A stretch of DNA of 64,000 nucleotides from an uncultured bacterium (GTDB taxonomy: Bacteria > Planctomycetota > UBA1135 > GCA-002686595). Position 1 is the first letter of the stretch. Every line of letters starts with the position of its first letter. Shown piece after piece: positions 7,569 through 27,003 of the stretch. The stretch covers positions 62,001 to 126,000 of the forward strand of contig CALBMX010000025.1 of assembly GCA_937896235.1 (NCBI GenBank). The letters run 5' to 3'. The position numbers were made by a program, and so were the translations under genes. The notes below the pieces were generated by a model that saw only the letters and a program-made list of their open reading frames with translations, had not been told where the DNA came from and did no database searches.

Positions 7569-7571
7569 GCT

Positions 7572-8854: not shown

Positions 8855-8873
8855 TAGCCAACCAGCACCTTTC

Positions 8874-10886
8874 TTAGTCGTCGTCGTGCTCAAGCGTGGC
8901 CGCCGCCAGAATCCGGGTCTGCTCCCCTTTTGGCATCGCCGAGTAGTCCAAAGGCTCGACCGAATACGTCCCCTCGCCTGCGGTTTGTGACTTCAAGTCC
9001 CGCTGGTAGGTTTGCATGCACGCAAGCGGAACAGTGGCTTCAATCACAGTTGTGTGACCATCATCCTCACTAGTTTGATCGACAACATGCCCGCGACGTT
9101 GACTGGTGATGTCCGCGAAGATTACGCCGGCATCATTCGCAGGAACATGGATCTCCACCTTCAGGATGGGTTCGAGCAAAACAGGACTCGCCTTTTCGAA
9201 ACCGTCCCGGAACGCTCGCGCACCAGCACGCCTAAAGCTAGCTTCGTCAGAGTCTACAGCGTGGAACTTGCCGTCGCAGAGTTCGACTTCAACGTCGACG
9301 ACGCGGCTTTGCGTAAGGATCCCGATCTCGCAAACCTCGCGAATTCCCTTCTCTACTGCGGGGATGAAGTTCCGCGGGATCGCCCCGCCAACGACTTTAT
9401 CAACAAATACGATTCCCGAGCCGGGAACCGCAGGCTTGACGCGCAGGGAGACCTCGGCGAACTGCCCGCGACCGCCCGACTGCTTGCGATGGCGAAAGTG
9501 CCCCTCGGCAGACTTCGAGATCGTCTCTTGGTAAGCGATCCGCGGTAGACGCGTCTCGATTTGCACGCCATACCTCCGCTCGAGGCGCGCCTCCAATACC
9601 TGGAGATGCAGCTCGCTCATTCCGCTGATCACCAGCTCATGGGTGAGCGCATCGTGGGTCGTCACAAAGGATGGATCCTCTGTCTCAAGCTTCCGAAGCG
9701 CCTCTCCGATCTTTTGCTCGTCTTTGATCGTCTTTGGCGTAACGGCGGCAGAGACAGAGGGTCGTGGCATTTTTGGAAACACGACCTCGTGCATCGGGTC
9801 CCCCTCCAAAGCGAAGACCTCGTGATGCCCGACATGCTCAACCTTCGTGAAGGCAACGATATCCCCTGCTCTTGCAGATTCGACTGCGACGCGATCTTTG
9901 CCCCCGATCAAGGCGAACAAACCTCCGATCTTTTCAGCCTTCGCCTCACCGTTCGCGATCACTGCTCCTGAGTGAATCGTACCGCGCAAGACCCGTGCAG
10001 TGCATATTCTGCCGACGTGAGGGTCAGACCTTACGCCGAATACCATTCCGAGCAGGCCCCCTTCGTCATCTGGAATGACAACCTTCCCGTCCACTTCAAA
10101 GCGCGGGTTCGAGACGGGGGTTGGGGCGAATTCCTCAAGGAATTCGAGCACGTCCTTCACGCCCAAACCCGAGTCGGGATTGCAGCAAAGGATTGGGATC
10201 AAAGTACCTTTTGCTATGGCTGGTGGCATTTGCGCATCTAGTTGTGCGCGAGTAAGAGTGCCGCCTTCCATGTAGCTCAGCATCAGCTCTTCATCATCGC
10301 AGTTGTCCATCACACGATCCATGACACGTGTTCGCCAATCCGCCACCTCTTCATCAAGAACGCAGCGAACTCTAGAGAACCCCGGACCACTCTGGTCCGG
10401 GACATCAAGAGGCACGCAGGTATGCCCGATTTTCTCTCTCAGCTCCTCCACCAGTCCGTCAAAGTCGGCGTTGTCGCCGTCAACATGGGTCACAACAAGG
10501 ATGCGTCCTAGCCCCATTTTCTCTGCGGCCTCGAGCTTCTTGCGAAGGTTGAACGTCAGTCCGCTCGCGCAGCTAACCACGGCAACAGCACAGTCCGAGG
10601 CGTGCATTCCCGACAGGGCCTCCGCCATAAAATCGGGGTATCCGGGAGTGTCGATCAAGTTCCAGGCTTTCCCGTCCTTGTTCGCGTGGACCACACTCAG
10701 TTGGAGCGTATGCCCCTTCGCTTGCTCTTCCGGCTCAGTGTCGCAAATGCTCGTTTTGTCGGCCACCGAACCTTTACGGTTCGTCGCGCCGAGTTCAAAA
10801 GCAAGGGCGTCCACCAAGGTGGTCTTACCGGAAGAGGGATGTCCCACAAAGGAAAGGTTCCTAAGGGTGGCAGGATTCGTCTTCAA
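8874..10886 (-). CDS. EF-G-like translational GTPase
   Basis: 670 residues, about 30 shorter than canonical EF-G. Domain order is G domain, domain II, then III-V (domain IV core HRKQSGGRGQFAEV; domain V around EPILKVEIHVP). The GTPase motifs are GHPSSGKT (15-22), DTPG (79-82) and THVD (133-136) in place of NKxD. The G1 sequence (HPSSGKT rather than HVDAGKT) and the short insert point to the EF-G-like (FusA2) group, not the housekeeping EF-G; these are often linked to stress or alternate ribosome handling. The start is TTG at 10886 with a very strong AGGAGG eight bases upstream. It stands alone between hairpins. Confidence 0.85.
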   Translation of the reverse strand: MKTNPATLRNLSFVGHPSSGKTTLVDALAFELGATNRKGSVADKTSICDTEPEEQAKGHTLQLSVVHANKDGKAWNLIDTPGYPDFMAEALSGMHASDCAVAVVSCASGLTFNLRKKLEAAEKMGLGRILVVTHVDGDNADFDGLVEELREKIGHTCVPLDVPDQSGPGFSRVRCVLDEEVADWRTRVMDRVMDNCDDEELMLSYMEGGTLTRAQLDAQMPPAIAKGTLIPILCCNPDSGLGVKDVLEFLEEFAPTPVSNPRFEVDGKVVIPDDEGGLLGMVFGVRSDPHVGRICTARVLRGTIHSGAVIANGEAKAEKIGGLFALIGGKDRVAVESARAGDIVAFTKVEHVGHHEVFALEGDPMHEVVFPKMPRPSVSAAVTPKTIKDEQKIGEALRKLETEDPSFVTTHDALTHELVISGMSELHLQVLEARLERRYGVQIETRLPRIAYQETISKSAEGHFRHRKQSGGRGQFAEVSLRVKPAVPGSGIVFVDKVVGGAIPRNFIPAVEKGIREVCEIGILTQSRVVDVEVELCDGKFHAVDSDEASFRRAGARAFRDGFEKASPVLLEPILKVEIHVPANDAGVIFADITSQRRGHVVDQTSEDDGHTTVIEATVPLACMQTYQRDLKSQTAGEGTYSVEPLDYSAMPKGEQTRILAAATLEHDDD

Positions 10887-11240: not shown

Positions 11241-11882
11241 TTACTCGTGGACTACGATCTCAACACGACGGTTTTGGGCTTTGCCACTTTTGGAGTCGTT
11301 ACTTGTCACGGGGCTATACTCACCGTGTCCAACGACGACACATGAGGAATCCTCGATGCCACAATTCGAGACGAAATAGTTCAGAACACTCATCGCGCGT
11401 TTTTGTGAGAGCTCACGGTTTGAAGCGAACTTCGACTTGGAGATCCGATCGTTGTCCGTATGCCCTTCGATCCAAAACTGGCCGTTAGGGTGCTCGCGAC
11501 GGAGTAGGTCCGCAACTCCATCAAGCGCGCTTTTGCCGGCGTTCGACAAGGAGTCTTGCCCCGAGGCAAAGGAGATCGAGGAGGGGATCATGATGACCAA
11601 GTTACCGTTGCGCATGCCGACTTCCACGCCGTTGTCGAACGTGGGCAATACGGGTGCGCTGGCGACCTGAACCCTGGCGTTTTCCAGCTCGCCGTTGGTG
11701 TTCGAAAGAGCCATTTGCGTCTGGTCGAGTTGACTGCGCAGGTTTTGATTTTCGCCCATCAAGGCGGTGCGCTCTTCACGGAGAGCGCCGAGTTCAGCCT
11801 CGTAGTCATCGAGAACTTTTTGGGATGCGCAGCTGCCCAGGAGCGGGAGCAACGCGAGCAAAGCAAGGGCGTTGAATTTCAT
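11241..11882 (-). CDS. OmpA/Pal-family peptidoglycan-binding lipoprotein
   Basis: 213 residues from the ATG at 11882, which gives a clean lipoprotein signal (MKFNALALLALLPLLGSC, lipobox L-G-S-C); an upstream in-frame start at 11909 would precede the basic n-region. Residues about 20-70 form a coiled coil (heptads through YEAELGALREERTALMGEN). The C-terminal OmpA domain carries the peptidoglycan-contact motif EGHTDNDR, the NRELSQKRA helix and the closing NRRVEIVV strand. It probably tethers the outer membrane to the cell wall as Pal does. Two Cys in the OmpA domain (NCGIEDSSC) may form a disulfide. No tol genes are nearby. Confidence 0.88.
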   Translation of the reverse strand: MKFNALALLALLPLLGSCASQKVLDDYEAELGALREERTALMGENQNLRSQLDQTQMALSNTNGELENARVQVASAPVLPTFDNGVEVGMRNGNLVIMIPSSISFASGQDSLSNAGKSALDGVADLLRREHPNGQFWIEGHTDNDRISKSKFASNRELSQKRAMSVLNYFVSNCGIEDSSCVVVGHGEYSPVTSNDSKSGKAQNRRVEIVVHE

Positions 11883-11991
11883 GGTGGTGCTAGGGGCTAA
11901 AGGCGCCATTCTAAGGCCGATATCAGACGGCGCTTGTAGAGTCGAAAAGAGAACGTGAGCCGCCTACTATCGCCAAAATCCAGGTGGTTTT

Positions 11992-12966
11992 CTAGTAGGC
12001 GAAGAACCGCTCCACTACATTCTTCCAAGCGAGCAGGACGACTCCAATACCTATTCCCAAATAGGGACCGAAAGGCAGGTATCGACCTGCAATTCTTGCG
12101 GCGGCAAGGCTCCGACGGAAGGGTTTACCGTTTCCTCGCTCCCTTGTCCGCTTCCGAAGCAGGCACAGAAAGCGCAGAACATTCCCGAGTCCAGCGAGAC
12201 TCGCTGCAAAAGACGCCACCAGTAGGGCCAAGAGTGCGCCGCCCGGGCCGATGAAGCCTCCGGCTGCGGCCAGGAGCTTCACGTCTCCAAAGCCCATGGC
12301 GTCCCGCTTGTAGATGAGCCGTCCTAGCCATGAAATGCCAATCAGGACTCCACCCCCTACAGCCATACCGGCGAAGCAAGCGATGAGTGAGGAGACCCGG
12401 TCTACGCCTCCGGTTGCCAAGGCTTCATCGCCGGTCAAGACTTGAGCGATCCACGTCTCTTGGTGTAAGGCCGGCACAAGGAATGCACACAACGGTGCCA
12501 GGAACATCCCACCAATAGAGATCTCATCCGGAATCTCTAAGAAATCGAAATCGACAAACGTGGCGACAACGATGCCGGCCAAGACCACACACCGGACGGC
12601 CAAGAGGAGCGAAGGGGGTGGCCCAGTGACATAGGCCGATGCAAAAAACAGAGCGGCCGTAATGACCTCAACAAGCGGGTAGCGCCAAGCGATCGGTGCT
12701 TTGCAGGAGCGGCAGCGCCCTCGCTGTAGGAGCCACGAAAACAGAGGGACATTCTCCTTCCAAGTCAGTGTCGCATCGCACTTTGGACAAACCGAGCGCT
12801 TGGGGTGGGATATCGTCATTCCCTCACGCGGCAGCCTGTGAATGGCTGCATTGAGGAACGACCCGACGATCAAACCCAATAGGATCCAAGTCACGTACCA
12901 GAATGAATCTGGAATGGCGACGTCCCCCTCCGGTCTCCACAAGCCTAAAACGTGTTGCACAACCAC
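11992..12966 (-). CDS. pilD: Prepilin peptidase (leader peptidase/methyltransferase)
   Basis: 324 residues from a GTG at 12966 whose first base is the last base of the upstream TAG stop, with AGAGGG just before it. A bitopic family-A24 aspartyl protease: first TM and GSFLNAAIHRLP motif, zinc-binding CPKC/CRSC pairs (Cys60, 63, 85, 88), catalytic Asp in VDFDFLEIPDE (Asp139/141) and the GFGDVK motif (Asp228), with about seven membrane helices. It cleaves the KKSG-FTLIE leader of PilA and methylates the new N-terminus. It is co-transcribed with an Ig-like lipoprotein gene instead of lying beside pilB/pilC. Residues 50-100, the cytoplasmic methyltransferase loop, are complete. Confidence 0.93.
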   Translation of the reverse strand: MVVQHVLGLWRPEGDVAIPDSFWYVTWILLGLIVGSFLNAAIHRLPREGMTISHPKRSVCPKCDATLTWKENVPLFSWLLQRGRCRSCKAPIAWRYPLVEVITAALFFASAYVTGPPPSLLLAVRCVVLAGIVVATFVDFDFLEIPDEISIGGMFLAPLCAFLVPALHQETWIAQVLTGDEALATGGVDRVSSLIACFAGMAVGGGVLIGISWLGRLIYKRDAMGFGDVKLLAAAGGFIGPGGALLALLVASFAASLAGLGNVLRFLCLLRKRTRERGNGKPFRRSLAAARIAGRYLPFGPYLGIGIGVVLLAWKNVVERFFAY

Positions 12967-14939
12967 TAGTCCCTCTTGTCCTCGTTCCAACTGATCTCCA
13001 CGAAGTCCACCATCGGCGGATCCCAAGCTTGACCGGGGCCAATTTCCAATTCAATCCACAAACGTACAGCGCCGCACCGATCAAGTAGGCTGAGATCGTC
13101 CACCGGTCCGACATTTTCAACGCGCCCACCCGCCAGATCTCTCTCTCCCAGATACCGAACCCGCAGGCTCCCGGCCCCCGATCTAGCCCCGATGGCCGCC
13201 GCCCGCCATTGGATGTTGTCTCCACTCGGACGAATAGGTGCCGAGAGGACACCCACTCGCAAAATCTCCTTCAGTGGATTCCTCTCCGGCTCATCGAAAT
13301 GGAGCATGGCCAGGCCCTCGCCGCTTCGCACGTAAGCACTCTTCGACGGTGGCTGAAGCGATGCGCCTCCGCCATCCCCGAGTATCCAAATCTCCCTTGC
13401 CTCGACTTTGCCACTGATACGGATTCGCCCACCCGCGGCGAGAAGAAGAGGACCGTCCAAGGTTAGGTCCCCATCGATTACGAGGTCGCTGCCAGCTACG
13501 AGAATCGTCCACTTGTGCTGGCTCTCTCGCGCCTCTTCAATCCACCGATCTAGGCTCATTCCTCCGGGGAATGACATCCTCTCCGCCTGTGTCAATTGAG
13601 GATCCGAACTGACGCGACCGTACCACACCCCCCAAGGTTCTCCATCTGTCCGAGTACCCTCGCCAGATTCAACCATGCGAGTCATGTTTCCGGAGATCTC
13701 CATCCGTCCTTGAGAGCGAACGACTAAGCAGCCTTCCAAATCACTGAGATCGAGCGTCCTCTTCGGTTCCAGTGTCAACGAACTGCTGTGCAGGTCTCCA
13801 CCGGCGGCTCGAAGCGGAGTGGCGTCGTCGCTTAGGACCATAGCACCTGCCCGCCCATCACCTGCGGCTTTGGGCAATCGGATGCCAACAAATCCACGGC
13901 CGTCCCACATGGCCATACCGCGGCCACCGGGCATCTCTGCGGGTGAGCGTAAGCTTTGTGACAAGAACTCGAAGCGGTGGAAACGGTTCCCTCCTGCGCC
14001 ACGATAGGGGATGACTTCAAGGGGGAACGGCATCTGAGAGAGTGCCCACGCCGAGCGAACAGGGTGGCCCCCAAAATCCATCAAGCCATTCTCAACACGA
14101 TCTTCTTGCGGCTCGCGAACAACGAGGTGGTACTCACCTTGCTCAAGGATCCTAGGCAGAACACTGTCTCCGCTAACGCCGAGGCCCTCGACGGCTCGCA
14201 ATTCAATTCGTGCTCCGTCCCGCCGATTGGACACAAGGACGGCATGAACTGCGATATCTTCGAGAGTGGCCCCGCTGTCCTCCGGGCCTTCCTCGCCTTC
14301 GCGAAAATACCGCAAGACGAAGTCACCATCAAAAACGGTTCGCGGGTCTAACGGCTCACTCGAGATCAGCTCGATGGGTTCGGCTCCACCAAAAGCACTC
14401 TCAACGACCGAGAGTGAAGCGGCCCCACCGGGGGTATCATCAAAAAAAACACGCTCCCCTTGGGAGCCGGAGACCGTAGAGAATACGGAGCGATAGCAGG
14501 ACTCGAGCACCCTTCCGTCGCGCGCACGCAACCCAGAGACCAACGGAAAACCACCAAGCTCGCAGCTGTAGGTCTCCTTGGGCCGAAAGCCACCGTCCAA
14601 TAAATCTTTGGCCAAAGCTAGAGCCGGTCGAAAAAGGAGCTGGTCTCTTCGAACCTCAAACTCACCCGGCACGGAGTGCCCATGAGCATCCGAAATTCGG
14701 GCACTGGCCATCGTTACCGAGGACGGGTCGAGCTCCTCCGAGAAGTGAAAGACAAGGGTCTCATTAAGCAGAACTCCGCTCTGACCTTCTTGATCAAAGC
14801 GCTCGAGCGTGAACTCCTTGGCTTCCGTCTGATCCTTCACACAGGAAGCAACCAGAACAACACAACCGGCAGTGAATACGAGGTTCCTCCAAAGCAAAGC
14901 AAGAGATGTGAATGTCGAGTCGGGCACCATGTCCGACAT
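12966..14939 (-). CDS. Large Ig-like lipoprotein upstream of prepilin peptidase
   Basis: 657 residues. The signal peptide ends in VVLVASC, a usable lipobox; the start is the ATG at 14939 or 14930. The N-terminal third has an SbsA/Big_5-like Ig module (LNETLVFHFSEELDPSSV, then LFRPALAL) and a second, weaker one (EPIELISSEPLDPRTV). The middle carries short beta-strand repeats with VIDGDLTLDGPLLLAAGG, similar in kind to the strands before the Gly-rich part of the 15367 protein. It ends in the shared C-terminal motif (GAVRLWIELEIGPG, then a Pro-led strand to the terminus). Probably an outer-membrane lipoprotein exposed on one face; function unknown. Its stop overlaps the prepilin peptidase start, implying translational coupling. 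Confidence 0.8.
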   Translation of the reverse strand: MSDMVPDSTFTSLALLWRNLVFTAGCVVLVASCVKDQTEAKEFTLERFDQEGQSGVLLNETLVFHFSEELDPSSVTMASARISDAHGHSVPGEFEVRRDQLLFRPALALAKDLLDGGFRPKETYSCELGGFPLVSGLRARDGRVLESCYRSVFSTVSGSQGERVFFDDTPGGAASLSVVESAFGGAEPIELISSEPLDPRTVFDGDFVLRYFREGEEGPEDSGATLEDIAVHAVLVSNRRDGARIELRAVEGLGVSGDSVLPRILEQGEYHLVVREPQEDRVENGLMDFGGHPVRSAWALSQMPFPLEVIPYRGAGGNRFHRFEFLSQSLRSPAEMPGGRGMAMWDGRGFVGIRLPKAAGDGRAGAMVLSDDATPLRAAGGDLHSSSLTLEPKRTLDLSDLEGCLVVRSQGRMEISGNMTRMVESGEGTRTDGEPWGVWYGRVSSDPQLTQAERMSFPGGMSLDRWIEEARESQHKWTILVAGSDLVIDGDLTLDGPLLLAAGGRIRISGKVEAREIWILGDGGGASLQPPSKSAYVRSGEGLAMLHFDEPERNPLKEILRVGVLSAPIRPSGDNIQWRAAAIGARSGAGSLRVRYLGERDLAGGRVENVGPVDDLSLLDRCGAVRLWIELEIGPGQAWDPPMVDFVEISWNEDKRD

Positions 14940-15296
14940 TGAACCAGACGCGAGGCCCTCGCTCCTAGCAGCCCGGCAGAAAAAGTCGCGTTGTAAGGAA
15001 CTGCCCGTAATTCACCGCTTCCATCTAGCCTTCCCTAAGAGACACCAAGAGCCCCTCGACAAGTCACCCCAAGCTGGACGTGAGCACATGGTGTGGCCCC
15101 ATCTTCCCTCCATGGATGGAGCTGAGGCCCCACAGGTCGTAGACGAGGGAGTCTGCACTAGACCCAAGGTAGCCCACCTGGTCAGGTGTCCCGGGCACCC
15201 CTCCAGCCAAACCACACCGCATCGGGACGCCGCTTTGCCAGGTGAGTGTCTCTTCTCCCACCTTACCATCCGCCCCGAGGAAGAACCCCGAAACAG
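14940..15296. other. Intergenic region upstream of the 12966 lipoprotein
   Basis: About 350 bases between the start of the 12966-14939 gene and the hairpin after the 15367 gene. It should hold a promoter for the lipoprotein-prepilin peptidase pair, but I see no clear -35/-10 or sigma-54 site. A 111-codon open frame (15012-15347, minus) starts inside the hairpin and has no protein-like features. Confidence 0.35.
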
Positions 15297-15336
15297 AATC
15301 GGCCCCGATTCGCCTTTTGGCGAATCGGGGCCGATT
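15297..15336 (-). terminator. 18-bp perfect hairpin after the Gly-rich lipoprotein gene
   Basis: Stem AATCGGCCCCGATTCGCC paired with its exact complement across a TTTT loop, 30 bases beyond the stop at 15367. The minus-strand side continues CTGTTTC, only partly T-rich. The perfect 18-bp stem makes it the likely transcription end for the upstream tandem lipoprotein genes. Confidence 0.7.
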
Positions 15337-15366
15337 GAAGAAGGCATTACGCCTTTGGATTGCGAC

Positions 15367-18300
15367 TTAGAAGCGCCAGGTCACCCGGGAGAAGTCCAAA
15401 CTTGGTCGCGGGCTAGTAGCCGAAAGGCCTGCCCCCAGTGCGTCCAAGTCAAAGAGGACTTCAAAGCGGATGAACTCGACAGTTCCAGCACCCTTTGCGT
15501 TGATCAGTCCAATGTCGGACGTCCAATCTTGGAAGCCCAAAGCGGTGACATCAGGAGCACCACTTGCGTCCACTCCTGCAGATTGGAATGTGAACTGAAC
15601 ATCAACACTATCCGGTAGGAAGCGATCGGTCCCACTTGTGGAGACCAAGAACGAAACGGGGTGCAAGCTAAAGTCCACGCCAGCGGGAGGGTTGAAGCTA
15701 GTCATAGCAAGTGACGGTGCACCGCTCACTTCCAAAACCAACTGCATGGTCCCAATGTCAAAGGAGGCCGAGGCGACATTGAAGCGCGCTAGGTTCGTTG
15801 GATTCCCAGTTTCGCTTAGCACCAAGAGGCTATCACGCAGAAGCTGCGGATTGCGCAGATAGAGGTCATCTGGCGTACCCGCCAGAGCAGCCGCGTCAAC
15901 CGTCAACGTCCGACCATCGACACTGATGTTCGGCAGCGCCGGACCGGCAACAACAGTAGTCGGGCCAAGCACTGAGTCTAAGTCATCTTGGAAGTCGTCG
16001 CTGTTCAGATCAAGCGCGCTGCCCGTCGTGGTGTTGATACCAGCGAAACCGAACAGAAGAGGATCCGCAGGCAAACCGGGATTGATGGCTGCTTGACCAA
16101 CTGCGATCCACTTGGTACGGGCACGTGAGCGCGCACCAAATGAAGGCACTAGGGTCATCGCATCGGGGAACGTAACCTCGGGAAGAGAGTTTGCAGAACC
16201 TACAGGGTTAACAAACTGAATATCACCAGAAGGGTCAAGGACATGAATCTGAATGATACCCGGTCCGCCGGATCCCCCCGCATTGATGCTGGAGACCCCT
16301 GACTTACCATTTCCGCCTTTGCCACCTTGTGCAGAGATGCACTTCGCGACGACTGAGTCGAAAATAAGAGCAGAGCCCGCTTCAATAATGATATGACCAC
16401 CAGATCCGCCACCGGAGCCGCCACCTAGGTGGTCGTTTCCGATCGTGTTCTCGCCAGCGCCTCCCTTGCCACCTTGAGCAAGGATGGTACCTTCATCGCG
16501 GATGGTTACGGTACCAAGGCTAAGGATATGCAGGCTACCGCCACCACCAGCGCCGCCACAGCCCTTCTCATCAGAGGCCGGGGCCCAGTTCTTGTGTGGG
16601 AATACGTTGTCACCTACCGCGTCGCCACCGGCACCACCGCCGCCGCCAGCCCATGGCTTGGTCAACTCGCCGACAATCACTTTGCCGAGTCCAGCACTGA
16701 ACTGAGTTCCATAGAAATCGTTGTCGGTTTCACTGTCAAAGAACGGCTGGTTGCCGGGAGGACCCCCCAATGGGGGTTTATTACCATAAACGGCGCCCGT
16801 GGCCAGTGGACCACCATCCCAACCAGAGTCTGCAATCATGCCGAAAGTGACGCCGGACAAGTCCGTGGACCCCGTAGCGTCGGCACCTAGTTTGCCACCA
16901 CCGCCGCCGCCCGGTCGGCGTTGATCTTTTCCGCCTAGGCCAAAGCCACTCTCGCCGCCTTTGCCGCCGAAGTTAGCTTGAGAGAAAGGACCAAACCCGT
17001 TGCCGCCTTGTGGCGTTGATGTGGTCGTCAGGAAACTAGCAGTGCCGCCACTACCACCACCTGCTGAACCGGCCGAACCGACTTCAGGTTGGTTACCAGT
17101 CTGCAAGGTCGCAACGTCGGGCCGGTCGAAACCGCTTAGGTCAATTTTGCCTTCAATGACGATATTACCCGACGCTTGGATTCTTACTGGGTTCACACCT
17201 TGAGCTTTAATCGTCGCCCCCGCTTCCACCACAAGGTGACGAACGTTGACTTGACCACCGACTACCGGTTGATCTTTGGTGTGAACAAAAGGCAGAGACA
17301 TATCGGCGCCAATATCGCCACCTTCAATCGTGAGGGCACCGCTTGTATCGAGCAGGATGACCACGCCGCCAGGGATAACCCAGTCAAATGCGCCGTCACT
17401 TCCACCGGTACCTGAGAAGCTAAATGCTGCACTTAGGGAACCATTTTCCCAGATTGCAAGAGGCTCTGCGAAGGGGGCCGTTGTGTCCTCAAGGCTGTTG
17501 AAGTCTTCACCCGACAGATCGTAGTCGAGCTTGACCTCGTCGGCCATGTCGGTGGTCGGGACCAACCCGGGAAAGTCCACAATCGTGGTTTGAAAGTGAG
17601 CGAAGTTATTGACTTCAAGTTGGTTGCGGTCACCGACGAGGTCCTCGAACTCCGTGGTGACGACAGCTCGTATCTCACTGGACTGGGGAAGCATACCGAG
17701 TGGCTGCAACCGCAAGGTCGCACCGGTCTCGCTGCAGTTGCGCTCAAGGAGCACGTCGGTAGCGACGGGAACCCAGTTGTTGGGGCCGCCCGCTATGTCG
17801 AGGTACTCCAAGAATACCCGCTTGCTTGAGATGTTCGCATTGGCCGGATTGACAGGCTGGTTGAACTCAATCAAGACCGAAACCTTTGTCATTTCGTCGC
17901 TGTAGAGGTTCAGTCCCTGTCCAACGGGAACACTAAACGTCTGCGACACGGTGTCAAAAGTAAATTCGACATCAGACCCTGCGCCAGCGGCCACTTCAAT
18001 ATGAGTGACCTCATCTTCAGGATTGATAGCCGCCCCGCCACCATCGAGTTGGCGAACAACTGGTGTCGCGGGACCGGTTTGGGTATCGATGAATGCAACG
18101 GCGGGCACGGAGGATAAAGGCGTAACAAAGGTACGAACTTGAGCATCCTTAAGGCCGACTCCGGCGGTGGACTTGACCGTCAGGCCACTTCCAGAAGCAG
18201 ATCCGAAAACCGCAATCTGATAGTTGATTCCACCAATTTTCAAGCCCGAATCCGACAAGTCGTCAAGCACAGGGCAAGTCGGCTGGAAGCGAACTTTGGT

Positions 18301-18591
18301 CGGGTTCAGCAAGGTGAACGCGCCCGATGCAGGCAGTCCGTTCAAGTCACGAATTGAGATCGTATTTAGGCTGACGCTGGAGAACTCCACCGGCGAACTA
18401 AACACAAAATCAATGGGACGGTTCACTTGCCAGATGGCGGCCTGTTGGACCGACATCGAAATCAGTTGAAAGCCGTTCCCAACAAGAGGCCCACCGGAAG
18501 TGCTGGAACCACCACAGGCAACGGGTAAGAAAGAGAGAGCAGCAAGCGCTGTCAGACGAATAGGATTCATGAGTGACTTGGTTTGGGCCAT
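15367..18591 (-). CDS. Very large Gly-rich Ig-like lipoprotein
   Basis: 1074 residues from the ATG at 18591 (GGAG upstream; the ATG at 18570 is the alternative). The frame extends up to 18672 but that part overlaps the neighbouring gene and lacks a signal peptide. The signal peptide ends in SFLPVACGG. It has Big_5-like Ig modules near the N-terminus (NRPIDFVFSSPVEFSSVSL; VSVLIEFNQPVNPANANI). Residues roughly 500-775 are a run of short beta strands alternating with Gly-rich turns (GGGGGGKLG, GGGGAGGDAVG, GGSGGGSGGHIIIEAGS), resembling beta-helix/adhesin-type stalks. The C-terminus has the shared motif (EFIRFEVLFDLDA, PSLDFSRVTW). Probably exported and surface-exposed; adhesion or matrix role is inference. 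Close relative of the truncated gene at 1-1455. Confidence 0.8.
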   Translation of the reverse strand: MAQTKSLMNPIRLTALAALSFLPVACGGSSTSGGPLVGNGFQLISMSVQQAAIWQVNRPIDFVFSSPVEFSSVSLNTISIRDLNGLPASGAFTLLNPTKVRFQPTCPVLDDLSDSGLKIGGINYQIAVFGSASGSGLTVKSTAGVGLKDAQVRTFVTPLSSVPAVAFIDTQTGPATPVVRQLDGGGAAINPEDEVTHIEVAAGAGSDVEFTFDTVSQTFSVPVGQGLNLYSDEMTKVSVLIEFNQPVNPANANISSKRVFLEYLDIAGGPNNWVPVATDVLLERNCSETGATLRLQPLGMLPQSSEIRAVVTTEFEDLVGDRNQLEVNNFAHFQTTIVDFPGLVPTTDMADEVKLDYDLSGEDFNSLEDTTAPFAEPLAIWENGSLSAAFSFSGTGGSDGAFDWVIPGGVVILLDTSGALTIEGGDIGADMSLPFVHTKDQPVVGGQVNVRHLVVEAGATIKAQGVNPVRIQASGNIVIEGKIDLSGFDRPDVATLQTGNQPEVGSAGSAGGGSGGTASFLTTTSTPQGGNGFGPFSQANFGGKGGESGFGLGGKDQRRPGGGGGGKLGADATGSTDLSGVTFGMIADSGWDGGPLATGAVYGNKPPLGGPPGNQPFFDSETDNDFYGTQFSAGLGKVIVGELTKPWAGGGGGAGGDAVGDNVFPHKNWAPASDEKGCGGAGGGGSLHILSLGTVTIRDEGTILAQGGKGGAGENTIGNDHLGGGSGGGSGGHIIIEAGSALIFDSVVAKCISAQGGKGGNGKSGVSSINAGGSGGPGIIQIHVLDPSGDIQFVNPVGSANSLPEVTFPDAMTLVPSFGARSRARTKWIAVGQAAINPGLPADPLLFGFAGINTTTGSALDLNSDDFQDDLDSVLGPTTVVAGPALPNISVDGRTLTVDAAALAGTPDDLYLRNPQLLRDSLLVLSETGNPTNLARFNVASASFDIGTMQLVLEVSGAPSLAMTSFNPPAGVDFSLHPVSFLVSTSGTDRFLPDSVDVQFTFQSAGVDASGAPDVTALGFQDWTSDIGLINAKGAGTVEFIRFEVLFDLDALGAGLSATSPRPSLDFSRVTWRF

Positions 18592-18652
18592 GTCGGCCCG
18601 ACTCCAAAATTGAAGGCGGGCCCTTTTGGGGGGGAGTTGAGAGGAGACCATT

Positions 18653-21600
18653 TTACAGGCGCTCGTAGGCAAAGCCGAGTCCTGACAGTTCCGGGAAGGT
18701 CCCGGCTGCGGCGTTATTGATAAGGGTCATGCGCACTTGGTAGAAGCGCATCGAGTTAAGCTCGCTGAGGTTCTCGGTCCAGCGCTGGCCTAAAGTCGTG
18801 TCAAAGGTAATCGCGCCATTGTCCGCAGCAGGGTCACCAAAGACCAAGGGATCACCAGAGGCCGGAACGTTGCCGTACATGTTAAGCTGCTCGGCATCGG
18901 TCGTTGCCACTCCACCCGCGACCTGGATGGCCCCACGGAAGTGCAAGTTGACGCTCGTGCCTGCTGGCTGATTCTCATTACGAGGTTCGATCACGGGCTC
19001 TGCGTAGGTAGGGGTTGCAATCGCAGTTTGGTGCCAGACCGTGTGGATGCGACTGACGCGAATCACGAAGTCGAGTTGGCCCATGTAGAAAATATTATCC
19101 GCAGAACCGGTGGCGACACCTAGAGGCGCAAGTAGTGGCTCGTAGTTGAAGCCACCAGAAGGGATCGGTTCAAGGTCCGGGTCCTTGTAGACATCATTAC
19201 CGCTGGTGTCGGCACCACCTGAGGAGAAGATGCGCTGGAAAGGTCGGTTCGTCCCGAACACTAGGCCCGTCACTCCACCACCAGTCCAACTGGGATCCAT
19301 CGCAAGAGATGTATCTAAGCGGTTGATGCCGATCGCCTCGTCCGAAGAGTAACAGCGGAACTCGGTGAGAATCGGAAGTCCGAAGGAAGGGATCACCAAG
19401 CCTGGAGAGATTTGGTAGTCCGAAATGATCGGAACGCCATTTTCATCCAATTCAACTGTGATCGTAGAGGACCCCGCACCAAGCGGCAACAGCGGGTCCT
19501 GGAGGGAGCCGAGTGGGGTGTCATAAAGCACAGGTTGTTCAAGACCAATCTCGATATCGCTACCACCGACAGCGGTAATAGCCGTATCTCGGTAGGTCCA
19601 GTAGAGGAAGTCATCCGGCTGACGATACTTGTTCATCGGGTACGGGAACATCAGCGTCTGTGAATCCGACTTGAACTTCTCGATAGGATCGATGAAATAG
19701 CCCTCCTCCTTTTGGTGAACTGTAGTGAGAGGATTGTTCGCATCGAGGAGGATGTTCTCGTTATAGGACGCAGTCAGAAACCCCGAATTAGGGAAGATCA
19801 GGGTGTTCGGAGGTGCGACCCAAGTCTCATCAGGCGTACGATTGCTAGTAGCAAACGAAATCGAGAAATCGGGGTAATATTCGCTGATTACCTTGGTGCC
19901 AATCGGAGCCCAGTTTACGTGCTCAACATCGATGTTCACGAAGGCTTCGTCGACCACATCCAACCCCATGTCGAAATAACGCCAAAGGGTCATCATTTTG
20001 CAACCAAGGGGATTGAGGGGCTCTTGGAAAGTTCCAATGAGCTGCCCTGGGTTCTTTACGACTTCCGCGTTCGGAACCATCCAGCCGGGGACTCCAACGT
20101 TTCTGTCAATCGTTTGGGAGAAGCGGTCAACGGGACGAGGCTTCACTTTGCCACGTACGGAGTCATAAACAAACTGCCCACGCATATCTGCGAGGCTGTT
20201 GCCATCGTCGTCAATGACTTTCCCACCCAAAGGCTGATCGAAGAACGTTCCAAAACGGAAAGCTTCGTGATCTGTGTCGTAGGTGGGCGCGTCCGCATCC
20301 ATAAAGAACGGAACGGCTGGGAAGGGGTTCGCCAGCTCGTTACCTGCGAGGTCGACGACGCCCTCTTCCTCGAAGATGTGGACATAGAAGTCCTCCGTAG
20401 CGCCGACGCTATGTTCCATAGGCACCCTTGAGGTGAACCTATAAAGCTTAAGGTCTGGTGAGGGGAAGGCTTCCCCTATAACAAACGTTCGCGTGCCCAT
20501 ATCTTTGAGGGCTAAATCCTGGCGCGAAACAACGAAAGCATCAAACGTGCTCATCCATTCCGGGTCCATGGGTTCGCTAAAGCGCAAGATCACAGAGGCC
20601 GTAGGATCCACGTCGACGTTGGTACCCAGTCCAGCCGGAGGATCGAACTCAACAAAGCAGTCCGCGCCGATAGGGCCACTCGGTTGCCAAGTTGTGAAGT
20701 AGTTGCCACCAGAAGGGAACGGTACTCCGGAGTCGGTAGTGAGAAGGCGAACCTTCACGCCGCTTACACTTCCGCCTACAGGGGACGAGCCGGCGGCGGT
20801 CACCTCTGCAAATACACCTGGTTGGGTGAGGATGTCTCCGACCTTGGCGGCGATGGAGCAGTTTGCATTAGCATAAGTCAGGCCGACAAGATAGTTGCCG
20901 GCAGGGGCACCGATGTCGATGGCGATTGAGTCGATTGTGATCGACTGGTTACCGACCACTTGAGGAGCTATGCCATCGGGTAGGAAGCCGTTGTTGGGAT
21001 CTTGAACTTTGTCGGTCGGCCCACCTGTTCGCAAAGCTCGGATGACGTCACTCGTGGGTGAATCGTAATCAATGGGCTGGTTGCCCGCGCCGTTAAGGGC
21101 GTGACTCGTAATGTTCTCAAGACGACTAAACTGCCCCACACCAAAATCCAATTTTGTTGGAATCCGGATGGCCAAGTTGGGCGAACCGGTATTGATCGCG
21201 CCAGGCAGACCCAAACCGTTTATTGGAAGGCCCGTAGCCTGAGACTCCATTTCAGAGACCACGGGGTCAATGAGCACTCGGGTTGAGTAGAACGTTCCCG
21301 CAACAGATGCGCCAAAGTTCACATCAGGCACCATGCGCGATGAGAATGGGGTTGTCGGGGTATAACCTGACAAGACGCGAATATTGTCTTGAGTCACCGT
21401 TGCTGGATCAAGCAGATCAGAGAACCGCAGTACGATCACCGAGTTCCGTGGAACCATTGAATAAGGCGGCAACTCAAAGGAGGCTAGGCTCTTCGGAAGA
21501 AGATCATCCATGCCCAAGAACAGTGCCTCAAAAGCTGCAGAGTAATCGGTCGTGCCGAAGTTGTGCAGAATGGTGAGGGTCGTGCGCTGGCTGATCGGAT

Positions 21601-21937
21601 TCGTAGACACCTGATAGTCCAAACCGTCCGAATCGATGTCCGGCCCGATAGCGAGATCGCGGTGAACCAAAGTTCCGGCGGCGTCGTAGACCTCATCAAT
21701 CAAGCGGCCCCAGCTCACGCTGAGCAAAGTCATATTGGATGCCGCGCCCGCAGAGTTGTTTTCCACAACGTAATGGGTCCCGTCTGCGTGCGGAAGGGTC
21801 GCTCCAATTAGGTCGAGAGCCGCTGACTTACCTGCGGATGGACCGCAAGCTGGCAAAAGGGTGGCAGCACAAACTGCGAAGGCAAAGGCCTTGAGATGAG
21901 TAGAGGTCATTTTGAGATCAAAGTAGCTGGGGAGCAT
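18653..21937 (-). CDS. Large Ig-like lipoprotein, second of tandem pair
   Basis: 1094 residues. The ATG at 21937 sits in a TGATG junction with the upstream gene and has GAGGAAT upstream, so translation is coupled; a later ATG at 21910 gives a shorter n-region. The lipobox LLPACG is good. The N-terminal segment (WGRLIDEVYD, HRDLAIGPDIDSDGLDYQ, LTILHNFGT) is closely similar to the next gene upstream. At least two Big_5-like Ig modules follow (VIVLRFSDLLDPATV; VILRFSEPMDPEWM), then a long region of unassigned beta-rich sequence and a closing RFYQVRMTLINN...PELSGLGFAY motif. Function unknown; probably exported. Confidence 0.82.
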   Translation of the reverse strand: MLPSYFDLKMTSTHLKAFAFAVCAATLLPACGPSAGKSAALDLIGATLPHADGTHYVVENNSAGAASNMTLLSVSWGRLIDEVYDAAGTLVHRDLAIGPDIDSDGLDYQVSTNPISQRTTLTILHNFGTTDYSAAFEALFLGMDDLLPKSLASFELPPYSMVPRNSVIVLRFSDLLDPATVTQDNIRVLSGYTPTTPFSSRMVPDVNFGASVAGTFYSTRVLIDPVVSEMESQATGLPINGLGLPGAINTGSPNLAIRIPTKLDFGVGQFSRLENITSHALNGAGNQPIDYDSPTSDVIRALRTGGPTDKVQDPNNGFLPDGIAPQVVGNQSITIDSIAIDIGAPAGNYLVGLTYANANCSIAAKVGDILTQPGVFAEVTAAGSSPVGGSVSGVKVRLLTTDSGVPFPSGGNYFTTWQPSGPIGADCFVEFDPPAGLGTNVDVDPTASVILRFSEPMDPEWMSTFDAFVVSRQDLALKDMGTRTFVIGEAFPSPDLKLYRFTSRVPMEHSVGATEDFYVHIFEEEGVVDLAGNELANPFPAVPFFMDADAPTYDTDHEAFRFGTFFDQPLGGKVIDDDGNSLADMRGQFVYDSVRGKVKPRPVDRFSQTIDRNVGVPGWMVPNAEVVKNPGQLIGTFQEPLNPLGCKMMTLWRYFDMGLDVVDEAFVNIDVEHVNWAPIGTKVISEYYPDFSISFATSNRTPDETWVAPPNTLIFPNSGFLTASYNENILLDANNPLTTVHQKEEGYFIDPIEKFKSDSQTLMFPYPMNKYRQPDDFLYWTYRDTAITAVGGSDIEIGLEQPVLYDTPLGSLQDPLLPLGAGSSTITVELDENGVPIISDYQISPGLVIPSFGLPILTEFRCYSSDEAIGINRLDTSLAMDPSWTGGGVTGLVFGTNRPFQRIFSSGGADTSGNDVYKDPDLEPIPSGGFNYEPLLAPLGVATGSADNIFYMGQLDFVIRVSRIHTVWHQTAIATPTYAEPVIEPRNENQPAGTSVNLHFRGAIQVAGGVATTDAEQLNMYGNVPASGDPLVFGDPAADNGAITFDTTLGQRWTENLSELNSMRFYQVRMTLINNAAAGTFPELSGLGFAYERL

Positions 21938-24900
21938 CAGGAATTCCTCAAGTAGGCAAGGCCAAACGCTGAGAGTTCCGGGGTTAGCCCGGTCTCCGTA
22001 TTGCCGATCAAAGAAAAGCGCACCTGGATGTATTGTCCACCGTCGACACTGTCAACGCTGTCTTGCCACGGGGCAATCTTACTCACTGGATCTTGCTGCA
22101 AGAAGCCGTTGATGTGCGGGTTCTTGCTTACAGTAGCACCGTATTGAATCGGTGCGGGAGCGGGGGGGGCGCCGGCGTGAAGTTCATCACCATAAGCGTC
22201 GAGACTACTAGCATTCAGCAGAGGGTCTTTGGACTTGTCGGTCACCGTGCCTATTGCCGTAGAACCACGGTACGCCAGGACAAGCTGGCTTCCGGAGGGC
22301 TGCTCACTCGGACGAGGCTCCAGTACCGGCGACAAGAAGTCTGGGTTCGACTCGTCGGTATCAAGCCAGCGGGTATAAGAGCGACTCACACGGATGACCA
22401 AGTCAAGCTGGCCAAAGTAGAAGACGTTGTCTTGCTTCGGAGTAGGCGCGCCAATCGGCAACCCAGAGGTCGAGCTTTGGTTATAGCCACCGCTTGGACC
22501 GGGCTGCGTATCAGGGTTCTTAATGATTGGGTTTCCGCCAGGATCGTATCCGCCCGTCGAGAAGATCCGGAAGGTCGGCTTGGAGGAAGAGTTAATCGCG
22601 ATTGCGCAATCAAGAGAGTTGAGACCAATACCCGTGTCGGACGGGTAGCACTTGAACTCCATGAGGAGGGGCAGGCCAATGGTTGGCACGTTGCCCTGGC
22701 CGGCGACGGTGCCCGTGTCGGCCGTACTCGTCAAGCCAACCACAGCCTCGATAGCTGCGGGGACACCAAAGCTGGAGACGCCGCCAACAGCCTGAACGGA
22801 AGTGTCGCGCCAAGTGAAGTAAGCAAACTCGGAAACCGGCAGGTTGCGATTCATGGGGTACGGCATGAACTTCGCGCCAGACGCACCGATGAACAGCTCT
22901 GCCGGGTCAATCAAGTAACCAAGCGCCTTTGGGTGGACCGAATCGCCCGTGGCCGCCGGATCGGGGAGTATGTTTTCTGCAAACGTGCTCGAAAGAAGGC
23001 CGGAGGTCGGCTTGGCCGGAAGCAGGGCCGAGTTGCGCTGCTCGTCAGGCATCTTGAGGCAATGAGAGAGGTTGATCTCAAACTCCTCGAAGAAGTCAGC
23101 TTGCAACTGACCCGCCAATGGCGCCCAGTTCAGCCCTTCGATATCCATGTTGTAACCAGACGAATCGGTCACGGAGAGTCCGACGTCAAAGTAACGGTAG
23201 ACATCCATCATACGGCTCCCCAGTGGTGACAGAGGAGTCTGCACGCCAGCGGGCAGAGCAATCATAATACTCGGCACGGCCTGTGATGGATCCGCGACGG
23301 CCGCTGTACGTTCAACGGGACGAGCGCGAATCAAGCCGCGGATAGGATCAAGCAAGAACTGTCCCGCGTATTCCGTCAGCGGAACCGTCCCCAAGAAGTC
23401 GCCATCTTCGTTCGGGTTGTTGAACCTCAAGACAATGCTTCCATTGCGTTCGGTCGCTGCATCGACTTTCATGTCGAACACGACTTGATCCAGACTTTCG
23501 GACAGGGCGTTCCCGGCGAGGTCCGTTAGGCCGAACTCGCCATCGAGCAAGTTCATGAAGTAAGACTCGCCTGAGCCCTGGCTGTGCGCCAACGGCAACG
23601 ATGGAATAAAACGAAACTCTTTCAGGTCCGCGGAGGGGCTGATGTCCCCCACTACAAACCCAGTAATGCCCGGATTCGTCGAGAGGCGTGTCACCGTGAA
23701 CGTGTCAAAGGGACGGACGCTGCTCGGGTCCATAGGTTCACTAAAGCGAACGACCATGTGCGCGTCAGGTGAGACCCCTGTGCTAGGCAGACTCGTCGCC
23801 AAGGGCGAGAAGGTCATAAAACAATCCGAGAAATCCCCGCCCGCCTTATCAAAGGTGGAGAGCACTTGCCCCGAACCGGTGTGGAAGTCGATCGGATCGC
23901 CCGCAAGAAGTTTCACTCGAACGTCCGCAAGCAGGCCAAGCGATGGAGGTGAAGACGGTGCCGTAGCTTCCGCGAAGACCCCAGGTAGGCTGAGGACATC
24001 ACCGATTTCAATCGCCGCTGCACACGCTAAAGACGCGTACTCGAACGACACGACGTAATCGCCGGGCCCCCCCGAGACGTCGGCGACGACACTAAGAATA
24101 GTCACCGGCTGGGAGCCGACGATTTGAGGTGCGTTGAGGTCGAGAAGGAAGCCATTGTTCGTGTCGCCCGTCGTGAGCGCATCACCACCGGAGCGCATCG
24201 CGCGGATGACCTCCTTGGTTGGCAGAGAGAAGTCAACCGGACCATTCCCAGAAGACGAAAGTCCGTTGCCGACTAGGTTGGTGAGGACTTGAAACTGGCC
24301 CGTGCTGAAGTCGAGAATGCTGGGGATACGCAGCGAGACGTTGGGCAGTGCAGTGGTCTTACTTGGAGGAAGGCCTAGCGAGTTCAAAGGCAAGAGGCTC
24401 TCCCCCGCCTCGAGCTCCGAAACCGTCGTGTCGAGCAGAACACGGGTGGGATAAAAGACCCCGCCCACCGTGTCCCCGTAATTGGGGTCGACCGTCAGGC
24501 GCGCCTCGAAGGGAAGCTCCGGTGGGTTTCCCACAAGTAGTTTCAACGTAGAGGAGTTGATCGTCCCCGGCTTGATCAAGTCCGAAAAGCGAACGCCAAT
24601 CGTCGCGTTGCGCGGTACGAATGAGAACGGAGGTGCCGAACCGGAATCCGACTTGGGTAGGATCGGCCCCAAGTTCTGATCGAGGCGATCGAATGCCAAA
24701 GTGTAGAGGCCCGTTCCGTGCGGGTGCAGGATCGTCAGCGACGCCTGCTCCGTGACCGCGTTGATGTCGAGTTGATAGTCAACACCATCGGAGCGAATAT
24801 CCTCGCCAATCAAGTAATCGCGGTGGCGAAGGTTGCCATTCCCGTCAAATACGTTGACGAGCCGCCCCCAAAAAACGTCGGTGATATACAGCTTGGAAGC

Positions 24901-25101
24901 CGAACCGCCGAAGTTCGCCTCGGTAAACCACCCCGTGCCGTCTGGATTCGCGTGCTCGGAACCAACCGAGGTGCCGGAGCTACCGCCAGAAGGAGAACTA
25001 CCACCGCAAGCAGTCATGCTTACCGCGAGGAGCAGTGAGGTCAAGGACGCGCCAAATAGGCTGCGCGAACGCTTTGGTTGGGTATCGAGAATCTTTTTCA
25101 T
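21937..25101 (-). CDS. Large Ig-like lipoprotein, first of tandem pair
   Basis: 1054 residues from the ATG at 25101, chosen because it directly precedes a basic n-region and hydrophobic core ending in SMTACGG; the frame stays open to 25209 but the extra residues are unlike a signal peptide. The organisation parallels the downstream gene: WGRLVNVFDGNGNLRHRDYL start, Big_5-like modules (IGVRFSDLIKPGTI; HMVVRFSEPMDPSSV), a conserved block containing RYFDVGLSVTD and GLNWAPL, then FGQLDLVIRVSRSYTRW, and the terminal QYIQVRFSLIGN...PELSAFGLAY motif. The gene heads a run reaching 15367. Likely a recent duplication partner of the 18653 gene, though divergent. Role not known. Confidence 0.82.
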   Translation of the reverse strand: MKKILDTQPKRSRSLFGASLTSLLLAVSMTACGGSSPSGGSSGTSVGSEHANPDGTGWFTEANFGGSASKLYITDVFWGRLVNVFDGNGNLRHRDYLIGEDIRSDGVDYQLDINAVTEQASLTILHPHGTGLYTLAFDRLDQNLGPILPKSDSGSAPPFSFVPRNATIGVRFSDLIKPGTINSSTLKLLVGNPPELPFEARLTVDPNYGDTVGGVFYPTRVLLDTTVSELEAGESLLPLNSLGLPPSKTTALPNVSLRIPSILDFSTGQFQVLTNLVGNGLSSSGNGPVDFSLPTKEVIRAMRSGGDALTTGDTNNGFLLDLNAPQIVGSQPVTILSVVADVSGGPGDYVVSFEYASLACAAAIEIGDVLSLPGVFAEATAPSSPPSLGLLADVRVKLLAGDPIDFHTGSGQVLSTFDKAGGDFSDCFMTFSPLATSLPSTGVSPDAHMVVRFSEPMDPSSVRPFDTFTVTRLSTNPGITGFVVGDISPSADLKEFRFIPSLPLAHSQGSGESYFMNLLDGEFGLTDLAGNALSESLDQVVFDMKVDAATERNGSIVLRFNNPNEDGDFLGTVPLTEYAGQFLLDPIRGLIRARPVERTAAVADPSQAVPSIMIALPAGVQTPLSPLGSRMMDVYRYFDVGLSVTDSSGYNMDIEGLNWAPLAGQLQADFFEEFEINLSHCLKMPDEQRNSALLPAKPTSGLLSSTFAENILPDPAATGDSVHPKALGYLIDPAELFIGASGAKFMPYPMNRNLPVSEFAYFTWRDTSVQAVGGVSSFGVPAAIEAVVGLTSTADTGTVAGQGNVPTIGLPLLMEFKCYPSDTGIGLNSLDCAIAINSSSKPTFRIFSTGGYDPGGNPIIKNPDTQPGPSGGYNQSSTSGLPIGAPTPKQDNVFYFGQLDLVIRVSRSYTRWLDTDESNPDFLSPVLEPRPSEQPSGSQLVLAYRGSTAIGTVTDKSKDPLLNASSLDAYGDELHAGAPPAPAPIQYGATVSKNPHINGFLQQDPVSKIAPWQDSVDSVDGGQYIQVRFSLIGNTETGLTPELSAFGLAYLRNS

Positions 25102-25665
25102 AGCGGGGAGTTGTTTCGCTTCTGGCTTCTCTGAAGGTGGGGAGAGACTTCTAGGGGGGAGGTGGAGAGGCCGGACTACGGCGACTAGGTGATTAGTCCT
25201 AATCATCAAGACCCGAAGACAGATAAGCGCGCCACGCGGGCGGAGCCTGTTCTGAGTTCGTGGTCGTGAACCATAGCGGGGAAGACTGTGATTGTTTCAT
25301 TTATAAGCGACTCGGGCAAGAACAAGGCCGAAAGGACTGCCTGATGCCGTCCAAAAGGACCCACAAAACACGAGTCGACTAACTAAGTACAAGTAGCGTG
25401 CCAAATAGCGTTTGAGGCCTAACCTGCAGGGTCCGGGCAACCGGAGAAAGGTTGGGATATGGCCCTAAAAGTGACCTGAGGGCCCATTCCCACGGGAACC
25501 GGAAGATATTTCCAAAACTTCCAGGAATAGCTCTCCGAGCGATTCCGCTCAAGTGGGTTAGGTGAAGTCGAACATCTCTGTGCCGTAGCGGTAATCCCGA
25601 GAAATTTGGAGCGTTGAGTGGCCCCCACCCTTGGCTGCATAGCTCCCCACGGGGGAATCGACGGG
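25102..25665 (-). other. Long leader/intergenic region upstream of the lipoprotein run
   Basis: Over 550 bases separate the pyrB stop from the first lipoprotein start. It contains a sigma-54-like element at 25388-25404 and an AT-rich TATAAA about 80-90 bases further downstream (minus, near 25304), which could be a sigma-70 -10 box. Apart from these I see no gene, tRNA or strong terminator after pyrB. Confidence 0.4.
25388..25404 (-). promoter_or_regulatory. Candidate sigma-54 promoter
   Basis: On the minus strand the sequence TTGGCACGCTACTTGTA matches the -24 TGGCACG element exactly and the -12 TTGCA element with one change (TTGTA), at the normal spacing of ten bases between GG and the -12 pair. 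It lies about 285 bases upstream of the lipoprotein start at 25101. rpoN is encoded in this window. The altered -12 and the distance keep confidence modest. Confidence 0.35.
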
Positions 25666-27003
25666 CTAGACACCGGTACCAACGGTAAAGCCAGCGCTTG
25701 CAGCCTCGGCCAAATCCCGGAAGAAGACGAGCTCCGCTGGCTCGATTCGTCGGGCCTCAGCCGCATCCGGACGAAAGGCGACCGGCCGACCGACCGCGCC
25801 GACTAGCGTGAGGTTCAGCTCTCTAGAGCAGTAGGCGCAAATGGCTCGCACCGGAAATCTTGAGACGATCCGATAAGAGGCGGGAGCCTGGCGGACCTCT
25901 GTGTGAGAGACGCACCCCATGTTTGGGCAGGGATTCCCCATGGCGTTCACCGGATAGGTCGCCTCGAGGTGGCGTCTTGGTGAGTGCGTAAAATCGAGTC
26001 TTCCAAGCAGCATGCCTAAAATGGCCATGCGAATGGGAACGCCTCGAGCGGCCTGCTTGAAGTAGATGCTACGAGGGTCCGCGTCGAACTCCGGAGAGAT
26101 CTCGTCGCGACGGGGAAGCGGGTGCATCACCACCGCCTCGCGGAGTGCTTCTCCCGACATGATGTCCGTATCGAGATGGATGTAGCCTGTGGCGGAATCG
26201 GCTTCACCAAAGCGTTCGGTCTGCGGCCGTGTCATGTAAACCGCGTCGACGTGATCAACGAGGCGTAATCCGCGCTGCGCCTCGGTGTAAAGCGAGAGCT
26301 GGTGAGGCTTAGTCGGCGTGATGTATACAGCGTCTGAAGAAGACGCCAAGTCCCCCAAGCACGATGCATCCGCAGCTTGTGGCTCGGCCCCGTATTCCTC
26401 GCGGAGGCGCTTTACTACGTAATCGGGAAGCTCAAGCCCTTGGTGAGGAACACAAACCAAGTTGGCGCCAAATCGTGCGAGCGCGTAGACGAACGAGTGA
26501 ATCGTACGGCTATACCGAAGGTCGCCGGAGAGTACGATGTCGAGCCCTTCCAGCCGGCCTTTCTCGATCCAAAGTGTGTAGAGATCGCACAGAGTCTGAG
26601 TCGGGTGTTCGTGACTTCCATCCCCTGCGTTGATTACGGGCACCTCCGAATACTGAGCAGCCAAACGCGCCGCCCCCTCACTCGGATGGCGCAGAATAAG
26701 GACATCTGCATAAGCCCCACTCACAACACGCACGGTGTCTGCGAGCGACTCACCTTTTGAAGCACTAGAAACACTCATGTCCGCGGCCGTAATCACCCCT
26801 CCACCAAGGCGAAGCATAGCGGATTCGAAAGACAATCGCGTTCGAGTTGAAGGCTCGTAAAAGATGCTCGCCGCGATCAGCCCCCGGCAGGTTTCAGCAG
26901 AGTCCCGGAGGTTCTCTGAAAAAATTCTAGCGTGCTCAAAAAGCTGCGAGATCTCCGCGAGGGAGAGGTCGTCGATCGAGACGAGGTGGCGCAGACCAGG
27001 CAT
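25666..27003 (-). CDS. pyrB: Aspartate carbamoyltransferase with fused PyrI-like zinc domain
   Basis: 445 residues, about 130 longer than a catalytic chain. Residues 1-335 form a full PyrB with the carbamoyl-phosphate loop YEPSTRTRLSFE (from 49), HPTQTL (133-138) and MHPLPRRDEIS (from 293). The C-terminal part after about 355 carries CPNMGCVSHTEV and CAYC with cysteines at 359, 364, 389 and 392. This C-X4-C-X24-C-X2-C pattern, with CPNxxC-[IV]-SH wording, matches the zinc domain of the regulatory chain PyrI. No PyrI allosteric nucleotide-binding domain is present: only about 24 residues lie between the two parts. A further 50-residue tail follows. It makes carbamoyl aspartate for pyrimidine synthesis. 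Confidence 0.9.
   Translation of the reverse strand: MPGLRHLVSIDDLSLAEISQLFEHARIFSENLRDSAETCRGLIAASIFYEPSTRTRLSFESAMLRLGGGVITAADMSVSSASKGESLADTVRVVSGAYADVLILRHPSEGAARLAAQYSEVPVINAGDGSHEHPTQTLCDLYTLWIEKGRLEGLDIVLSGDLRYSRTIHSFVYALARFGANLVCVPHQGLELPDYVVKRLREEYGAEPQAADASCLGDLASSSDAVYITPTKPHQLSLYTEAQRGLRLVDHVDAVYMTRPQTERFGEADSATGYIHLDTDIMSGEALREAVVMHPLPRRDEISPEFDADPRSIYFKQAARGVPIRMAILGMLLGRLDFTHSPRRHLEATYPVNAMGNPCPNMGCVSHTEVRQAPASYRIVSRFPVRAICAYCSRELNLTLVGAVGRPVAFRPDAAEARRIEPAELVFFRDLAEAASAGFTVGTGV

Follow-up and report, generated by a model that had tools for sequence, protein, structure and literature searches.

A run of lipoprotein genes directly before pilD

We analysed a 64,000-nucleotide stretch of DNA (the window, G000:C25:62001-126000) from the 4.26-Mb draft genome (88.5% complete) of an uncultured planctomycete, the nearest named relatives of which are Planctomycetota metagenome-assembled genomes (MAGs) and the isolate Pla86. 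The subject is a run of four minus-strand genes for large exported lipoproteins (A, B, C and D), which are transcribed in that order and followed by pilD, the gene for the prepilin peptidase (Table 1). All four large open reading frames (ORFs) that an initial annotation of the sequence had listed are present where it placed them, as is the base-for-base overlap that it described between the last lipoprotein gene and the start of the peptidase gene: the GTG start of pilD (12966-12964) shares one base with the TAG stop of D (12968-12966), giving TAGTG. Farther upstream, the ORFs of A and B overlap by 1 base and those of B and C by 20 bases. ORF starts are uncertain throughout (for example, the pilD frame is open upstream to a TTG at 13026, and C has 1,101 residues if a TTG start is used, an ATG at 18591 being the likelier start).

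Each of the four proteins begins with a hydrophobic signal followed by a cysteine, consistent with the earlier description of exported proteins with a lipobox, and alignments of the relatives of D, A/B and C show little or no variation at this cysteine; the proline at position -3 of the C lipobox (PVAC) is unusual. A and B are paralogues (41% identity). We rejected A-D as substrates of PilD, as their N-termini carry lipoboxes only and no prepilin motif. A fifth relative, said to be cut by the left edge of the window, is indeed found there (E in Table 1) and extends past that edge beside another C-type gene (L181). After PilA, towards and beyond the left edge, lie two or more additional C-type lipoproteins (L181:13912-20000 and window 1-1458), such that lipoprotein genes flank both ends of the PilT-B-C-A block.

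Table 1 Features of the lipoprotein-pilD region and its surroundings in the window
Feature	Position	Strand	Details
Lipoprotein E, C-type, N-terminal part	1..1458	-	Big_5 at 1.6e-6; remainder outside the window
Downstream backbone: EF-G-like, PilT, PilB, PilC, PilA pilin	3675..10886	-	Conserved
OmpA/Pal-type peptidoglycan-binding lipoprotein	11241..11909	-	Member of the conserved pilD backbone
PilD prepilin peptidase	11992..12966	-	A24_N 6.5e-32 and Peptidase_A24 2.5e-7
Lipoprotein D	12966..14939	-	657 aa; lipobox VASC; adjoins pilD
Perfect 18-bp inverted repeat, 4-nt loop	15297..15336	.	Immediately past the C stop; T run weak
Lipoprotein C	15367..18672	-	About 1075-1101 aa; lipobox PVAC; Big_5-like region and Gly-rich stretch
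Lipoprotein B	18653..21937	-	1094 aa; lipobox LPAC; paralogue of A
Lipoprotein A	21937..25101	-	1054 aa from ATG at 25101; lipobox MTAC; Big_5 at residues 440-541
Candidate sigma-54-type promoter, TGGCACG-CTAC-TTGTA	25388..25403	-	Upstream of A
Upstream backbone: PyrB, MnmE-like GTPase, type III pantothenate kinase, GspC-like TM+PDZ protein, PilT2	25666..31517	-	Conserved
PilQ/GspD secretin, PilO, putative PilN (position only), PilM	36429..41706	-	
rpoN (sigma-54) gene	44332..45807	-	

Conservation within the order

Across the order to which the genome belongs, sampled here as 61 genomes from eight families (the home family being f1), A/B, C, D and PilD were each detected in 60 or 61 of the 61 genomes. 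Gene order was assigned with profiles, because antisense ORFs in this GC-rich DNA are misleading by length. In the fetched regions it runs Obg, PilT2, GspC-like, CoaX, MnmE, PyrB, A(A), C, (A), D, PilD, and continues with OmpA/Pal, EF-G-like, PilT, PilB, PilC, PilA, TatD (on the other strand) and further C-type lipoproteins. Loci are broken by MAG contig ends; the block A(A)-C-(A)-D-pilD is retained wherever a contig includes both of its ends.

D lies directly upstream of pilD in 51 of the 53 judgeable loci, drawn from all eight families, with overlapping ORFs in 19 of the 51; in five more loci, lost to the ORF filter and not part of this count, a direct search placed PilD beside D. The co-occurrence of the lipoproteins with pilD in relatives, a check that the initial annotation had put forward, is thereby borne out. 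D diverges to about 20% identity across the order, yet stays next to pilD. Outside f1 the two are adjacent in 22 of 24 cases, versus 1 of 15 genomes for a control pair of window neighbours, argF-dnaE, which lie within about 3 kb of each other in seven more.

A sigma-54-type promoter motif before the first lipoprotein gene

A consensus scan of the window returned one near-perfect intergenic site, TGGCACGCTACTTGTA, before A, and the window also carries rpoN. For the order-wide test we scored the published-type consensus TGGCACG-N4-TTGCW (maximum 12) against dinucleotide shuffles. In the gap between PyrB and A the mean best score was 9.54 versus 8.05 in shuffles (Z = 12.2), with 14 of 26 gaps at 10 or more and a mean of 7.54 on the opposite strand, and 15 further loci repeated the signal (mean 9.47); all other junction classes gave Z values of -1.7 to 2.8. 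Given that related rows are not independent, these Z values overstate significance, but the spacer and junction controls share that relatedness. The signal is confined to a spacer of 4 and is lost at every other length from 0 to 9. Each G of the GG is conserved in 22 of 23 sequences and each base of the TTG in 22-23 of 23; the derived pattern is YGGCACG-N4-TTG(C/A/T)W.

Where a lipoprotein occupies the corresponding slot outside the order, the motif scored 11/12 in family f15, 11/12 in f43 and 10/12 in f54, and none was found before the lipoprotein of f24, f33 or f47. The 13 unlinked A/B genes have no motif (mean 8.1), and none stands out upstream of PilA in the window. The conserved -24/-12 promoter motif before the first lipoprotein, seen throughout the order, is a new observation of this analysis. 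Two other candidates were rejected: a sigma-54 promoter immediately ahead of pilD in other parts of the phylum (mean 8.38 over 60 loci versus 8.53 in shuffles), and sigma-70-like promoters in the region (3 found versus 5.9 expected). Genome-wide, the derived pattern has 13 exact matches, compared with 7 for the reversed pattern; twelve other sigma-54-like sites lie on G000 contigs C2, C13, C23, C27, C30, C32, C34, C82, C93 and C94.

Domains and predicted folds

Within the run, Big_5 (PF13205) exceeded the Pfam gathering cut-off only in A (2e-7; 32 bits versus 23.6), with B, C and D individually under it. Among relatives, matches (E up to 0.01) were present in 32 of 45 A/B, 16 of 24 C and 15 of 26 D proteins, and several reached 1e-8 to 1e-10. 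The SbsA/Big_5-like modules that the initial annotation ascribed to the run are thus supported by A and by many relatives, and stay below the cut-off in B, C and D themselves.

An NCBIfam search of A-D gave nothing reliable, and profile-based sequence searches of the PDB gave no match for A/B and chance-level matches only for D. In C (15370-18594), the glycine-rich part with its GGGSGGGSGG runs resembles the Obg fold (polyglycine helices; 1lnz, E 7e-5), which is unusual in an exported protein. For A, AlphaFold gave a compact and confident model (predicted local distance difference test score (pLDDT) 88.6, predicted template modelling (TM) score 0.80), and a fold search with it found no whole-chain match, single domains being like CopC and the S-layer protein SbsC. 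The model of D (pLDDT 79) has partial, low-TM likeness to the immunoglobulin (Ig)-like modules of bacterial alpha-2-macroglobulin, L,D-transpeptidases and SbsC, and neither search gave a structural match to pilus proteins. A-D are large, mostly beta, exported lipoproteins outside any described family: profile and fold searches yielded no full-length family or fold match, in line with the earlier remark that no nameable system fits.

The pilD slot outside the order

In a phylum-wide sample, PilD was found in 229 of 246 genomes, mostly as a single copy, and 60 PilD loci came from families outside the order. Because the core of PilD, OmpA, EF-G-like, PilT, PilB and PilC recurs widely among these loci, it is probably ancestral. 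Among loci that also retain the upstream backbone, those of f27, f41 and f71 have no recognised gene in the slot before PilD, those of f23, f70 and f77 have a small gene there, and those of f15, f24, f33, f43, f47 and f54 have Big_5-type lipoproteins; in f41 and f71, distant A/B relatives occur elsewhere in the genome. Given this variation, the association of lipoprotein and pilD is recurrent or ancient and not obligatory. Full-length A/B occurs in this order only (16 of 16 sampled); about 31 genomes elsewhere in the phylum gave matches at domain level. A/B copy number per genome ranges from 1 to about 10.

Neighbouring pilus genes and other features

The run does lie between two type IV pilus loci, as originally described, with PilT, PilB, PilC and PilA on one side and PilT2, a GspC-like PDZ protein, PilQ, PilO and PilM on the other. 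The PDZ protein (29211-30236), which has an N-terminal membrane segment and a C-terminal PDZ domain as in GspC/EpsC, adjoins PilT2 and may stand in for PilP here. For no evident reason, much of the phylum has an EF-G-like gene (fusA2 type, 8874-10886) between OmpA/Pal and PilT; in the window, an imperfect 33-nt inverted repeat (11096-11163) lies between OmpA/Pal and this gene. A bacterial small signal recognition particle RNA (48976-49073) is located between a dnaX-like gene and two tRNA-Ser genes.

Discussion

We tentatively propose a surface operon under sigma-54 control that has A-D and pilD as its core and is functionally tied to the pilus or type II machine, a reading that we hold to be nearly, if not quite, an even proposition. 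The sequences themselves show the genes and their order, the lipoboxes and the promoter motif, and that these are conserved; from this we infer a single transcription unit the products of which would be exposed at the surface, may be adhesive and may use or touch the pilus/type II machine. RNA polymerase with sigma-54 would start about 280 bases before A, from the -24/-12 promoter and with the help of an enhancer-binding activator, and the unit probably runs from A through D into PilD, given that in most genomes the genes overlap or lie close together. The four lipoproteins would then pass through Sec, be lipidated at the conserved cysteine and reach the outer membrane, most likely ending up on the outside as large beta-sandwich proteins with an adhesive or coat function. 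Coupled to D and last to be translated, PilD would mature the pilins and pseudopilins of the machine encoded around the operon, and surface coat and pilus would thereby appear together. A bolder form of this proposal, in which A-D build a dedicated outer-surface structure (for example, an adhesive coat or pilus-port collar) that is displayed through the PilD-matured machine without GspN and switched by sigma-54 at a change of lifestyle, seems to us unlikely.

Several observations weigh against the operon proposal. In the window, C and D are separated by a gap of 427 bp that contains the hairpin at 15297-15336, which, given its weak T run, would be an attenuator or a poor terminator; with gap and hairpin between C and D, a single transcript for all four genes is not a given. 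Unlinked paralogues of A/B and C in the same genomes have no need of an adjacent pilD, and families f5 and f47 keep lipoproteins beside pilD despite having no local PilT, PilB or PilC. GspN (PF01203), which is required for type II lipoprotein export in Acinetobacter and Klebsiella, was over the cut-off in 0 of 41 genomes of the order, leaving room for a diverged AsmA-like protein; if type II-like export occurs here, another part would be used. The pilus link suggested by the initial annotation therefore holds in part: the D-pilD adjacency, the filled slots in six other families and a promoter on pilD-linked copies only speak for it, and the unlinked paralogues and the f41 and f71 exceptions do not.

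Some of these points would suit a link that is regulatory only, in which a sigma-54 operon is co-expressed with pilD and the lipoproteins travel via Lol and a separate surface route without contact with the pilus machine. The specificity of the motif for pilD-linked copies, the absence of GspN, the unlinked paralogues and the f5 and f47 loci are all as expected from such a link, which nevertheless leaves unexplained both the adjacency and overlap of pilD and D through eight families and the related genes in the same slot outside the order; we consider it only somewhat unlikely.

The position of the genes within a long pilus region (PilM-N-O-Q, GspC-like and PilT2 / PilT-B-C-A) also raises the idea of a structural role for the lipoproteins in the machine, for example as an outer-membrane secretin collar or a tip-adhesin carrier, D being the piece nearest to the machine. 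D is shortened to 253-313 residues in f5 (L155, L159, L166, L169, L172 and L175) and f47 (L284 and L285), the lineages that lack local PilT, PilB and PilC and are separate in the PilD tree, which is suggestive of a pilus role for the C-terminal part of D, in two lineages only; other PilB/GspE-type ATPases are still present in f5 genomes. A pilus component would be expected wherever the machine is present, yet f27, f41 and f71 have the pilD backbone with a slot free of lipoproteins, D and A lack structural matches to pilus proteins, and A/B copy number varies widely, all of which makes a structural role very unlikely. Passive retention, in which lipoprotein genes landed in a deeply conserved stretch and stayed without any functional tie to pilD, could point to PyrB, MnmE, CoaX and the EF-G-like gene, kept about as well with no evident pilus role, but is highly improbable in view of control neighbours that drift apart in the same genomes, the 19 overlapping D-pilD pairs and a promoter found only on linked copies and also in f15, f43 and f54.

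The envelope of Planctomycetota is unusual, and their surface proteins and pili have been little described; our literature search found no experiment on members of this order. Here, a set of proteins outside any known family is nearly universal in one order and has a fixed place before a usually single prepilin peptidase gene, together with a conserved promoter motif. The locus is thus a defined and testable entry to surface building in these cells, and possibly to lipoprotein display without GspN.

Comparison with known systems

The closest parallels are lipoproteins that the type II system takes to the surface, namely PulA of Klebsiella and the Ig-like adhesin InvL of Acinetobacter (PMC12802150, PMC9245377). 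The likeness lies in the lipobox, the large exported protein and the secretin and pilin-type machine nearby, and with InvL also in the Ig-like domains; the differences are the presence here of at least four genes beside pilD, the absence of GspN by its Pfam model and the lack of any sequence or fold match. Whereas dependence on the type II machine is known for PulA and InvL, for A-D it is putative. Likeness to Big_5/SbsA Ig-like proteins is seen in A and many relatives, which score over or near the Pfam cut-off, but Big_5 makes up about 100 of the 650-1100 residues of these lipoproteins, and the rest belongs to no Pfam, NCBIfam or PDB sequence family, save the Obg-like glycine-rich stretch of C.

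In other bacteria, sigma-54 (RpoN) promoters drive pilA. The motif described here resembles such promoters in its GG and TTG boxes with a 4-base spacer, but precedes lipoprotein A and not the pilin. The pilB-pilC-pilD genes likewise form a type IV pilus operon in other bacteria, and pilD is here also near pilT, pilB, pilC and pilA; in contrast to that operon, an EF-G-like gene and an OmpA/Pal gene are interposed, and giant lipoproteins precede pilD.

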